15,602 nt of DNA from contig DGUD01000028.1 of NCBI GenBank assembly GCA_002393865.1, positions 1 to 15,602 of the forward strand, written 5' to 3'. This document shows positions 12,619 to 15,602 of the stretch, piece by piece; the first letter of the stretch is position 1; each line of letters starts with the position of its first letter. Under the pieces are notes generated by a model, which worked only from the letters and a program-made list of their open reading frames with translations, did no database searches and was not told the DNA's origin. This DNA comes from Treponema sp. UBA4319 (lineage in GTDB: Bacteria > Spirochaetota > Spirochaetia > Treponematales > Treponemataceae). Position numbers and translations under genes: made by a program.

Positions 12619-14007
12619 TTAGCCGGCGCTGTCCCGCGGCAGCGTCACCGTCAGCAGGGCGCCGGGATTGCCGTTACTGGCAGTCACGGAGCCGCCAAGC
12701 GTCTGCATAATCGCGCGTGCTATAGAAAGCCCCAAGCCGGAACCTCCAGAAGAGCGGCTATGAGAGGAATCCCCGCGGAAAAAGCGCTCAAAGACATGGG
12801 GCAGCACCTCCGGGGAAAAGCCCGGCCCGTTGTCCTGGATGCAGATTAGCGCTTCCTCCGGGCGCTCGGCAAAAGAAAGCTCTATGACGGCTTCCGGGCC
12901 GGCAAATTTTATGCTGTTTGAGATAATGATGGTACAGACCTGGTGCAGCAGCTCGGCATCGGTATGCACGACGTGCCCTTCGTTCTCCCCAAAGACAATC
13001 CTGCTCCCGGCAGAAACAGATCTTGTTTCCTCACGGAGCCGGGCAAAGAGCAGCCCCACGTCGACATCGCTCTTTGAGGGGCTCAGCCGCCCGTTCTCCA
13101 GACGCGAAAGCTGCAGCAGATTCGTTATGATGGATTTCATGGAATTTGCCTCGCGGATAATGATTTCCAGCGATTTCTCCAGCTGGGCGGGATCATCCTT
13201 GCCCCAGCGGCGCAGCAGGTTGCTCTGCCCCAGCACGACGGCAACGGGGGTCTTCAGCTCATGGGACACATCGCTCGTAAAGCTGCGCTCCCGCTCAAAA
13301 TCGCTCTTGAGCCGCGTAAAAAGGTCGTTGAAAGTCAGCGCCAGACCGTCTATCTCATCCAGCGAGCCGGGCTTATGCTTGACGGGCAGCTTCTGGTCAA
13401 GGTTCGAGCTGCTTATCTCACGGGCTGTCTGCGTCATTTTGACGACGGGCCGCATCGTATGCCGCGTTATGAACAAAGAAATGCAGAAGGAAACAAGCAG
13501 CACGGGTATGACAAGAAAGGTTATCGTGCGCGGGATTCCCTGCAAAAGCAGCTCCGTGGAATCGCTATCCATGTTGAGCACCGTCTGGATGATGATGGAG
13601 CGCCCCTTATGGAAATAGGGAACCGCATAGTACAGGATATTCAGGTCGCCGTTCGTAAAATAGCCCTTGCTGATGTAGGGCACTGCCTTGCCGTCAGTCT
13701 GGGGCAGAATAGGAAGGAAGGGGTCGTTCGTGTACATAACGATGCCGGTACCTGCGTCATAGACCGTATAAGTTATAAAATACGGGACATTGGAGAACAT
13801 GTACAGGCGGTTGGACGTATTTGTAGCGGCAAGATCTTTCACAATCTCGCCCGCAGCGTCAAACAAATCCGAGGACTGCTTTATACGGATAAAATGCCGC
13901 AGGGTCAGCGTAAACAAAACCGACAGCAGAAGAACCGCAGCCGCAAGGAGCACGGAAAAACGGAGGGAGAGCTTTACCGCGACGGAACGGTATTCCTTCT
14001 TCTTCAT
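12619..14007 (-). CDS. Sensor histidine kinase with HAMP domain
   Basis: A 462-residue inner-membrane kinase, the sensor partner of the response regulator just upstream. It has a first membrane segment (about 17-38), a sensor region outside the cytoplasm (about 40-158) and a second membrane segment (about 161-181). A HAMP linker follows (about 182-236, starting TRHTMRPVVKM). The HisKA domain carries the phospho-accepting His249 in SHELKTPVA. The catalytic domain has N-box Asn364 (IISNSIKFA), G1 DNGPGF (392-397), F-box FERFFRGD (406-413) and G2 GGSGLGLSIA (421-430). Its ATG shares the bases ATGA with the regulator's stop, with GGAAG eight bases upstream, so the two are translationally coupled. 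The signal is unknown; the external region has many aromatic residues (SNVPYFITYTVYDAGTG) and no recognised ligand motif. Confidence 0.95.
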   Translation of the reverse strand: MKKKEYRSVAVKLSLRFSVLLAAAVLLLSVLFTLTLRHFIRIKQSSDLFDAAGEIVKDLAATNTSNRLYMFSNVPYFITYTVYDAGTGIVMYTNDPFLPILPQTDGKAVPYISKGYFTNGDLNILYYAVPYFHKGRSIIIQTVLNMDSDSTELLLQGIPRTITFLVIPVLLVSFCISLFITRHTMRPVVKMTQTAREISSSNLDQKLPVKHKPGSLDEIDGLALTFNDLFTRLKSDFERERSFTSDVSHELKTPVAVVLGQSNLLRRWGKDDPAQLEKSLEIIIREANSMKSIITNLLQLSRLENGRLSPSKSDVDVGLLFARLREETRSVSAGSRIVFGENEGHVVHTDAELLHQVCTIIISNSIKFAGPEAVIELSFAERPEEALICIQDNGPGFSPEVLPHVFERFFRGDSSHSRSSGGSGLGLSIARAIMQTLGGSVTASNGNPGALLTVTLPRDSAG

Positions 14008-14690
14008 GCGCCGCTACTTCCGTCCGTCATCATATAGCCGGTGCCACGCATGGTCTTTATGTACTCAGAGCCGCATGCCTGGTCTATCTTGGCGCGCAGG
14101 TAGCCGACATAGACATCGACGTTGTTGTCATCGATAAAATGCCCTTCTCCCCACACCGCGCTCATAATCTGGTCGCGGCTGAGCACCTGGTTCACGTGCT
14201 CCATAAAATTCTTGAGCATCAGGAATTCCGTCTTGGAAAACTCCAGCGGCTTTCCGGCAAACGTAACCTTCATGCTTTCCGGATAAAGCTCCAGCTCCCT
14301 GTTCTTTAAGTGGGCAGGGGCAGAAGCCTGCCCCACGCGGCGGAGCACCGCATGCATACGGGCAAGCAGCTCCTCTATCTCAAAGGGCTTTGCAAGGTAA
14401 TCGTCCGCGCCCGCATTCAGCCCGTTCACCTTGTCGTAGGTCTCGCCGCGAGCCGTAAGCAGGATAACAGGGACAGACGAGACTTTGCGTATGCGCCGGA
14501 GCACCTCAAGCCCGCTCAGCTCCGGGAGCATGATATCCAGCAGGATAAGCCCCGGTTTCTCGCTCTCAAAGAGCGAGAGCGCCTGCCGCCCGGTGGCAGC
14601 AAGCACCGTAGAAAAGCCCTCATGCTGCAGCTCCCGGCTGACAAAATCCGCGATTCCCTCGTCGTCCTCAACAATCAGAACTGTATCCAC
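14004..14690 (-). CDS. OmpR/PhoB-family response regulator
   Basis: A 228-residue two-domain regulator, normal size for the family. The REC domain (about 1-117) has the acidic pocket Glu8/Asp9/Asp10, phospho-acceptor Asp52 in LLDIMLPELSG, Thr79 and Lys101 in LAKPF. The winged-helix DNA-binding domain (about 130-225) contains EFSKTEFLMLKNFMEH, VDVYVGYLRAKID and the RGTGYMM wing. The start codon is GTG (14690-14688), with GGGAG eight bases upstream; the start overlaps the preceding gene by 16 bases. The stop overlaps the kinase ATG. It should bind direct repeats at promoters when phosphorylated by the kinase. The TTTTCTTA repeat at 15377-15398 is a good candidate site. Confidence 0.95.
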   Translation of the reverse strand: MDTVLIVEDDEGIADFVSRELQHEGFSTVLAATGRQALSLFESEKPGLILLDIMLPELSGLEVLRRIRKVSSVPVILLTARGETYDKVNGLNAGADDYLAKPFEIEELLARMHAVLRRVGQASAPAHLKNRELELYPESMKVTFAGKPLEFSKTEFLMLKNFMEHVNQVLSRDQIMSAVWGEGHFIDDNNVDVYVGYLRAKIDQACGSEYIKTMRGTGYMMTDGSSGA

Positions 14691-15154
14691 TGCTCCAGCT
14701 CCCTGTCATAGCGGAACCGCTCCTGCGCCTGCAAGCCCGGCACATCCGCCGCCATCACCGTCCCCCCCGTATAGGTGCGGACTCCCTGCAGCGAGACAGA
14801 GAGCGGGAACGCGACGGCATCCTTCAGGCGGATTCGCAGCAGCGTGCCCTCATGGTTGAACGAAAGCTTGGCGCTATCATCGACTGGCTGGCCGTCCAAA
14901 AAAATATTCTCCAGCTGCACGGAGCGGGGATCGATTTCTCTGCTGAAAAAAAAGTCTATGACAAGCGGTTTTTTTTCTTTTGAGGGTATACGGATTTCCT
15001 GCACGTAAGCCTCGGTCTCCTCAAGGGGAATCCTTCTTCCCCGGTAATTGACCACAGGAACTTCGGCCTCCTCTTCTGCCTGCTGCGCACAGAGCGGAAA
15101 CAGCGCAGAAAAGAGTATACATGCTGTCACAAAACAAATTTTTGTCTGGCTCAT
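14675..15154 (-). CDS. Small exported protein with Ig-like domain, first gene of the two-component operon
   Basis: A 159-residue protein from the ATG at 15154. It begins with a signal peptide (SQTKICFVTACILFSALFPL) with a likely signal peptidase I cut after PLCA; no proper lipobox is seen. The mature part, about 135 residues, starts with an acidic stretch (QQAEEEAEVP). It then holds a beta-rich domain with VIDFFFSREIDPRSVQLENIFLDGQ, LSFNHEGTLLRIRL and FPLSVSLQGVRTYTGG. This pattern resembles the bacterial SbsA/Big_5-type Ig fold (inference). An ATG at 15163 would add three residues and is equally possible (GGGAG 13 bases upstream). Starts further out at 15256 are unlikely. The gene overlaps the response regulator by 16 bases. 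This ties the exported protein to the kinase pathway, perhaps as an accessory sensor in the periplasm. Confidence 0.75.
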   Translation of the reverse strand: MSQTKICFVTACILFSALFPLCAQQAEEEAEVPVVNYRGRRIPLEETEAYVQEIRIPSKEKKPLVIDFFFSREIDPRSVQLENIFLDGQPVDDSAKLSFNHEGTLLRIRLKDAVAFPLSVSLQGVRTYTGGTVMAADVPGLQAQERFRYDRELEQWIQF

Positions 15155-15376
15155 ACTACTCATCAGGGAACAGAGGCTCCCAATACTTTCAGAGGCAGCC
15201 CCAAAAATCCCGGACGGACTCCTGAAACTGGTCAAAACACAGCGCAAGAATCGCACATGGGGCGCCCGTCCCGCTGAGACTCTCGCACGAATGCTTCAAA
15301 AGCAAGAGGCTTTTAAAGCATACCCTTTCAGTATATCCGCATTTGCGTAAATACGGAACACCTAAAAAAATAAGAA
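15155..15376 (-). promoter_or_regulatory. Leader and probable promoter of the two-component operon
   Basis: No gene is seen here. On the minus strand a TATACT (15335-15330) is the best -10 hexamer, giving a start near 15323 and a leader of about 160 bases. No -35 of quality lies at the right distance, so an activator is likely needed. A TTGACC further down (near 15230) has no good -10. The phased TTTTCTTA repeats lie about 50 bases upstream of this -10, at roughly -64. Confidence 0.35.
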
Positions 15377-15398
15377 TTTTCTTATCTTTTTCTTAGAA
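15371..15398. promoter_or_regulatory. Candidate operator: TTTTCTTA direct repeat with 11-bp period
   Basis: TTTTCTTA occurs at 15377-15384 and again at 15388-15395, start to start exactly 11 bases, one helical turn. OmpR/PhoB-family dimers bind head-to-tail repeats of this spacing (established knowledge). TAAGAA (15371-15376) is also an inverted copy of the TTCTTA core. The site lies between the minus-strand two-component operon and a plus-strand promoter, so it could control both. Confidence 0.5.
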
Positions 15399-15428
15399 AG
15401 ATTTCATGAATTCCCCGCCGGACTACGG

Positions 15429-15434
15429 TATAGT
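15429..15434 (+). promoter_or_regulatory. Candidate -10 element for the right-edge transcript
   Basis: TATAGT (five of six to consensus) lies 30 bases downstream of the phased TTTTCTTA repeats. The -35 region is poor, which would fit an activated promoter with the operator centred near -53. Transcription would start near 15441 and run into the terminator at 15515-15558. Confidence 0.4.
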
Positions 15435-15440
15435 TAAGAC

Positions 15441-15558
15441 CATAAGGTTGCGTTTGCAGCCCGTATCTAACCTCCTAAAACACGAAGTCCTACTCTTTGA
15501 GGAGTTATTGTGCCACCCTGTCCGAGCTTGTGCCGAGCGCGGGCAGGGTTTTTCTTTT
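15441..15558 (+). ncRNA. Candidate small RNA or structured leader with masked ribosome-binding site
   Basis: A predicted transcript of about 115 bases from the TATAGT promoter to an intrinsic terminator. CTCCTAAA (15472-15479) pairs with TTTGAGGAG (15496-15504) with one bulged G, hiding a strong Shine-Dalgarno (GAGGAG) placed five bases before a GTG at 15510. A second helix, AGGTT (15445-15449) with AACCT (15469-15473), shares two bases with the first, so the two compete. I see no match to SRP RNA, 6S RNA, tmRNA, RNase P RNA or a riboswitch class I know. It could be a stand-alone RNA, or the leader of a gene beyond the window. Confidence 0.4.
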
Positions 15559-15599
15559 ACAGCACCCCGTCCGGACTTGCGCACAGGGCTTCAGCATGA
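15510..15599 (+). CDS. Possible 29-codon leader ORF overlapping the terminator
   Basis: GTG (15510-15512) is preceded by GAGGAG (15499-15504) at ideal spacing, and the frame is open for 29 codons to TGA at 15597-15599. The product would be PCPSLCRARAGFFFYSTP-like, with no recognised motif. The frame runs straight through the terminator hairpin, so ribosomes on it would affect termination. It is very short, so chance is a real alternative. Confidence 0.25.
   Translation: MPPCPSLCRARAGFFFYSTPSGLAHRASA
15515..15558 (+). terminator. Strong intrinsic terminator at the right edge
   Basis: ACCCTGTCCGAGC (15515-15527) pairs with GCGCGGGCAGGGT (15537-15549): 13 positions with one G-T wobble and one mismatch, around a nine-base loop. 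TTTTTCTTTT follows. It works only in the plus direction; the minus strand has no T-tract. Confidence 0.85.
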
Positions 15600-15602
15600 G
15601 AT

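Follow-up and report, generated by a model that had tools for sequence, protein, structure and literature searches.

What is made from the short intergenic stretch at the right-hand end of this Treponema contig, and does it serve the gene beside it or act elsewhere in the cell? The window is the whole stretch of DNA analysed (15,602 nt) and comprises an entire contig (C12) of Treponema sp. UBA4319, whose genome assembly (G000; 2.76 Mb in 225 contigs) is 84% complete. A preliminary description, made from the letters alone, had placed a structured RNA here and had read it as an RNA switch or attenuator under the neighbouring two-component system. From the comparisons reported below, the locus appears to be the gene of a stand-alone small RNA (sRNA) rather than a switch or attenuator. 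On balance we favour its being the gene of a trans-acting sRNA of that two-component system, probably pairing with mRNAs via its UCCUACU and CCUCCU segments. The relevant features of the window were as follows.

12619–14007, minus strand: sensor histidine kinase (HAMP, HisKA and HATPase_c domains)
14004–14690, minus strand: OmpR/PhoB-type response regulator (Response_reg and Trans_reg_C domains), presumed activator
14675–15148, minus strand: 157-aa protein with a signal-like N-terminus, without Pfam or NCBIfam match
15371–15410, plus strand: operator of three 11-bp-phased half-sites, the last covering the -35 position
15429–15434, plus strand: -10 box TATAGT, aligning with those of 17 other operator sites
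15442–15558, plus strand: small RNA, about 110–117 nt
15446–15461, plus strand: 5' hairpin GGUUGC-GUUU-GCAGCC (predicted fold)
15469–15476, plus strand: anti-Shine-Dalgarno-like segment AACCUCCU, predicted to be mostly paired to GAGGAGUU
15488–15494, plus strand: UCCUACU loop, candidate seed, predicted unpaired (probability about 0.8–0.9)
15499–15506, plus strand: GAGGAGUU, predicted to pair with the anti-Shine-Dalgarno-like segment
15515–15558, plus strand: intrinsic terminator (stem 15515–15549, U-tract 15549–15558)
15584–15602, no strand assigned: left end of a 233-bp repeated element, the last 19 bases of the window, outside the RNA

To the left of the RNA the minus strand carries, in this order, the genes for the 157-aa protein, the regulator and the kinase. 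Every NCBIfam match listed for the regulator fell below its own cut-off, and the top NCBIfam match of the kinase was the heavy-metal sensor model TIGR01386, under its cut-off. The window sequence was without a match in phage and plasmid collections. The plus-strand -10 element and the phased operator of the preliminary description were both recovered. Direct reading placed the half-sites at 15377–15387 (TTTTCTTATCT), 15388–15398 (TTTTCTTAGAA) and 15399–15409 (AGATTTCATGA), and the same operator recurs beside two-component operons of this type. Across 18 aligned operator sites the spacing to the -10 box was constant, the box had the consensus TATxxT (T, A, T and the last T invariant), and most sites shared an RTAAGG start; transcription would begin at approximately 15442. 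As in two-component regulons, the 11-bp direct repeats reached the -35 position and a -35 consensus was missing; a promoter scan of the window gave no sigma-70 -35/-10 pair at the RNA promoter. Regulation by the neighbouring regulator is suggested by the adjacency of its gene to the operator. A regulator gene lay beside the operator in 5/12 loci found by operator DNA and in 12/19 loci overall, seven of these 12 having been found via the neighbouring protein. Eleven named stretches with the same operator all came from Treponema sp. or uncultured Spirochaetaceae, and the source, where stated (four of the 11), was the rumen in every case.

The full RNA folded better than dinucleotide shuffles (z −3.58 and z −3.92), mostly through the contribution of the terminator. 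The body folded alone was borderline against shuffles (p 0.043 for the window; 0.043, 0.030, 0.063 and 0.060 for the four members of the family described below). Rfam at the gathering cut-off returned no match to the window RNA, and a loose Rfam search of 15300–15602 returned two chance matches and nothing else. An undescribed, structured and strongly terminated RNA had been proposed between the promoter and the terminator, and it was upheld on these measures. So was a hairpin masking a GAGGAG: GAGGAGUU was predicted to pair with AACCUCCU, the motif was predicted paired in all four members, the UCCU/AGGA pairs were retained in 4/4 and the AGGAG columns were invariant. A competing AGGUU/AACCU helix, put forward as the second of two exclusive folds, can form but costs 4.3 kcal/mol (−12.9 versus −17.2), and a two-fold switch was rejected on this difference. 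Compensatory changes in both helices had been named as the evidence that would support the pairings; RNAalifold on the four members gave four pairs with zero compensatory change or covariation, so the pairings are without that support.

Conservation was assessed in 200 genomes of the genus. The interval 15360–15590 had some match (E ≤ 0.05) in 86 of them; the sole near-full-length match beyond the window was in one close relative, G192 (93% over 15360–15557, stopping at the terminator), itself an incomplete genome (82% complete). Most other matches fell in the AT-rich operator part. A first search of 59 genomes had given short matches alone besides the window, and a 22/24-base match (E 0.008) in a G002 gene, permease-like by our own reading, was dropped as chance. 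The RNA locus is syntenic between the window and G192. Along their alignment, identity was 355/458 in the DUF gene, 50/77 aligned positions in the left intergenic region (119 gap columns), 63/66 in the operator region (15345–15410, with 0 mismatches in 15371–15396), 22/30 in the spacer and 95/96 in the RNA body (15461–15556), then 10/46. Over 15441–15556, 113/116 positions were identical; the changes were 15463 and two within the 5' hairpin, both in its loop, and the terminator was unchanged as far as 15556. For comparison, third codon positions of the regulator and part of the kinase were identical at 323/535 and fourfold sites at 139/253 (Fisher p 8e-18 and 5e-19, respectively, against the RNA body). 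To judge by this contrast, the RNA is under strong selection. The conserved stretch is flanked by its own promoter and an intrinsic terminator, as expected of a stand-alone intergenic sRNA.

Both genomes also carry a paralogous two-component system with a different operator and a different exported protein. At these loci (L061, G000:C188; L173, G192:C295) a paralogue of the 157-aa protein was present, together with a divergent exported-protein gene without Pfam match; the phased operator preceding that gene is of another type (TTCATC), and the 5' hairpin is similar.

A second lineage was found by searching eight genomes with the operator pattern. In G012 this promoter recurs at a site away from the two-component genes, and downstream of it lie CATAAGGTT, a hairpin, ACCTACTTAAAATCCTACTT, AAGGAGG and a terminator; G217 carries the same arrangement, and the two are not independent of each other. 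Between them the core was identical at 72/74 positions with one 1-nt insertion, and third positions of the upstream gene at 191/318 (Fisher p 5e-12 against the core). Their terminators were identical at 19/41 aligned bases and formed a different hairpin, which indicates replacement. Global alignment of the window body to G012 and G217, omitting the first nine bases (common to many transcripts of the regulon), beat shuffles (p 0.0017 and 0.0010); local alignment was not significant (p 0.13 and 0.29). UCCUACUU was present in both genomes at a different alignment position. With moderate confidence, the window/G192 and G012/G217 RNAs may be taken on sequence grounds as one family, the second lineage, at another locus, being probable. 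The sequences also show the body to be independent of the terminator sequence. A sequence model of the body (R2) built from these four training members was searched in the 200 genus genomes. The training members were recovered at E below 1e-18 and nothing else below 0.01; 13 further rows at E 0.011–0.050 were treated as noise. Known members number four, in two lineages.

The reach of the operator was assessed with a site model (R1) built from the 18 aligned sites and searched in the same 200 genomes. Matches at E ≤ 0.01 occurred in 82/200 genomes. At E ≤ 7e-11 there were 27 sites, comprising the 18 training sites and nine new ones. All 27 were inspected; among matches weaker than approximately E 1e-4, inspection covered just the paralogous sites in G000/G192 and some others. 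Downstream of the 27 sites lay a terminated RNA without an exported-protein frame in 10 (two of the window type, two of the G012 type and six of type B) and a short ORF in 17, the signal-like start of the ORFs being judged by eye and six of them being near-copies (G083, G092, G125, G128, G141, G171). Eight of the 17 ORFs were translated: five had 12–16 His in 160–218 residues (G017, G012, G217, G122, G108) and the remaining three were Lys-rich with 0–2 His (G083, G182, G157).

Type B RNAs were seen behind the same operator at L103, L104, L105, L114, L207 and L214 (G187, G183, G116, G210, G205 and G165, respectively). They are approximately 180–290 nt long, lay away from two-component genes in 4/4 loci tested, and have predicted hairpins with UGGAGA-type loops and 3–14 GGA per RNA. 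By eye, the sequence of their terminator stems varies and pairing is kept. Since their longest frames are of 18–73 codons and four of the six run open past the first T-run, type B RNAs are only putatively non-coding. They are possibly CsrA-binding RNAs, going by raw GGA counts. Weaker operator matches at L246 (G139:C47; E 3.5e-5) and L238 (G163:C245; E 3.1e-6) were followed by a short stretch, a hairpin loop with AACCUC(C), a T-run and then an opposite-strand gene; these stretches are perhaps a further RNA class. Neither type B nor the other RNA classes found here matched Rfam.

Several explanations other than an sRNA were weighed against this material. That the region is a short mRNA encoding a small protein is the least probable of them. 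The preliminary description had counted no protein gene larger than 29 codons; this was incorrect for the window, in which an ATG frame from 15406 extends without a stop over 65 codons, as far as the window end, but in G192 the frame meets a stop after 12 codons. The GTG frame said to run through the terminator does exist (15510–15599, 29 codons, with GAGGAG 5 bases upstream), but it ends within the repeat element in the window and its C-terminus is unrelated in G192; a start codon after GAGGAG is missing in 2/4 members, the GTG being absent in G012/G217. The strongest coding frame against the sRNA reading is a TTG frame at 15448, in the frame of ATG 15406. It is open through the terminator in both the window and G192, with 35 codons to the first T-run, and the three changes between the two are mild: one synonymous (CGT/CGA), one Leu/Met and one Val/Ile. 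Against it, its C-terminus lies past the terminator in DNA unrelated between the two genomes, synonymous change is nearly absent, unlike in the neighbouring genes, and the 1-nt insertion between G012 and G217 shifts any frame. No protein frame was conserved to its end, and the plain coding conservation that had been named as fatal to an RNA did not appear in any of the frames. At the level of sequence, the locus is a terminated unit with a conserved operator and promoter and with extreme conservation of a kind that is not coding-type. That the RNA is a cis-acting leader (a switch or an attenuator) of the gene that follows it in the same direction is also very unlikely, though somewhat less so. 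In G192 a gene with NYN (nuclease-type) and OST-HTH/LOTUS domains (L131:2464–3297) lies on the same strand approximately 100 bases after the terminator. In the window's genome its counterpart (G000:C195:162–995), 98% identical, starts contig C195, the left end of which carries the other end of the 233-bp repeat and then 10 bases, GACTTGCGCA, that also precede the repeat in the window; the gene presumably lies right of the window. Even so, the 233-bp element appears to intervene there, and G012 and G217 have another gene downstream. Pairing of the body with either terminator arm (G000, G012 and G217; six tests) did not exceed shuffles (p 0.15–0.95), and antitermination was rejected on this result. 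Body–terminator antitermination is also strongly disfavoured because the terminator was replaced in G012/G217 while the body remained unchanged. The proposal of a switch or attenuator found no support: an antiterminator pairing and a constant type of downstream gene were both missing across the loci, as was, in two of the four members, a start codon behind GAGGAG.

Two explanations remain. That the stretch is conserved for no RNA function, being either the decayed remains of the leader of an exported-protein gene now lost or a tract transferred recently, is improbable, its likelihood lying between those of the two preceding explanations. It draws on G017 (L041, C147), where the syntenic promoter gives a leader with TCCTACTTCATTCAGG and a long hairpin before a His-rich exported-protein gene, and where this leader can be aligned locally to the body of G012 (p 0.0015). 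The G017 case may connect the sRNA with an mRNA leader, and the RNA may have originated from one. A transferred tract is at odds with the alternation of conserved blocks and diverged spacer within 200 bases, and both decay and transfer are at odds with the repetition of the pattern by the second pair at another locus. The main rival to mRNA pairing is a stand-alone, two-component-controlled RNA that binds a protein or the ribosome as a sponge or decoy; we regard this as unlikely, with a better claim than any of the foregoing. The whole body is conserved, beyond a short seed, no target complementarity was found, and type B RNAs behind the same operator have UGGAGA hairpin loops. Yet nothing points to a protein partner, and the window RNA is not a CsrA sponge of the known layout because its single GGA, at 15501, is predicted paired; that candidate, which calls for several loop GGAs, was rejected.

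The favoured reading remains the trans-acting sRNA. The regulator's binding, the expression of the RNA, its action in trans, the kind of target and the signal are all inferred, as follows. The kinase would sense an envelope or metal-type signal, and the phosphorylated OmpR/PhoB-type regulator would bind all three phased half-sites, with the last one taking the place of a -35 box. Transcription would begin near 15442 and the RNA would end at 15549–15558, its ends protected by the 5' hairpin and the terminator. The free RNA would act in trans, with the open UCCUACU loop, and CCUCCU once unfolded, pairing with ribosome-binding sites and lowering the translation of target mRNAs; in the predicted fold UCCUACU is open and CCUCCU largely paired. 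Target searches in G000 and G192 used the 17-base complement of CUAACCUCCUAAAACAC, which was found in G000 in the gene itself alone and in G192 at one further site with 3 mismatches. This single further site, which is not above chance, overlaps an exported-protein gene's ribosome-binding site; the reversed control gave 6 (G000) and 5 (G192) matches, more than the real pattern. Of 18 translation-start regions, none paired better than shuffles (best p 0.16).

The 233-bp element at the end of the window, with inverted ends CAGGGCTTCAGCATGA...TCATGCTGAAKCCCTG, is abundant in the window's genome. Its 17-base end pattern, at two or fewer mismatches, gave 81 forward and 72 reverse matches (controls 0), and many contigs end in it. 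A 10-base duplication surrounds the element at the window end and C195, and none was seen at the four full-length copies looked at. It was also present on stretches L072, L080, L087, L097 and L162. The NYN/OST-HTH gene beyond it possibly codes for a protein that acts on RNA, and it neighbours an RNA gene.

Enterobacteria have trans-acting sRNAs under OmpR-family two-component control (OmrA/OmrB, MicF and MgrR). Like the window RNA, these are short, terminated, highly conserved intergenic RNAs with a response-regulator-type operator upstream; unlike it, they belong to a different phylum, and Rfam gave no sequence relation. CsrA-sponge RNAs (CsrB/CsrC, RsmX/Y/Z) carry a series of GGA in loops. 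They share with the window RNA the two-component control of a terminated non-coding RNA and are pertinent to type B, but the window RNA has one GGA and no loop series. The alpha-r14 or 'cuckoo' sRNAs are described as having three hairpins, all of which present the same CCUCCUCCC unpaired, and NfeR1 (alpha-r14) is tied to the two-component system NtrBC (PMC10746234). The likeness to the window RNA is in the shortness of the RNA, the anti-Shine-Dalgarno-like segments (UCCUACU and CCUCCU here) and the two-component tie, and the difference is that the window RNA offers a single CCUCCU, partly paired, and a single UCCUACU loop; by direct reading, its hairpins do not each hold an unpaired CCUCCUCCC. 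For Leptospira, csrB and csrC homologues are reported to be lacking, FliW is named as the possible antagonist of CsrA, and a CsrA-like ncRNA is reported from L. biflexa (PMC8668096). The L. biflexa RNA would make a sponge RNA in a spirochaete less novel. Among titles and abstract beginnings, no paper on the window RNA or on regulatory RNAs of rumen Treponema was found. Overall the window RNA looks like a new sRNA family, absent from Rfam, of an ordinary, known bacterial regulatory-RNA kind.

A broader and decidedly speculative idea, which we think doubtful, is that one Treponema two-component promoter module has repeatedly been rewired between protein and RNA. In most of the species examined it would drive exported, often His- or Lys-rich proteins and, in three lineages, RNAs without an exported-protein frame, instead or additionally; the window RNA would descend from the leader that such a protein gene once had at this very site, and type B, with UGGAGA loops in its terminator too, would sequester CsrA. 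If true, a type B CsrA sponge would stand in a phylum where FliW is thought to do that job. Should the sRNA reading hold, the family would come with an operator, a candidate regulator that can be named and a candidate class of signal, so that every step is testable; the signal class is suggested by the His- and Lys-rich exported proteins of the regulon and by a kinase whose closest model, though matched below its cut-off, is that of a metal sensor. It would also mean that one regulated promoter may yield a protein in some species and an RNA in others related to them.
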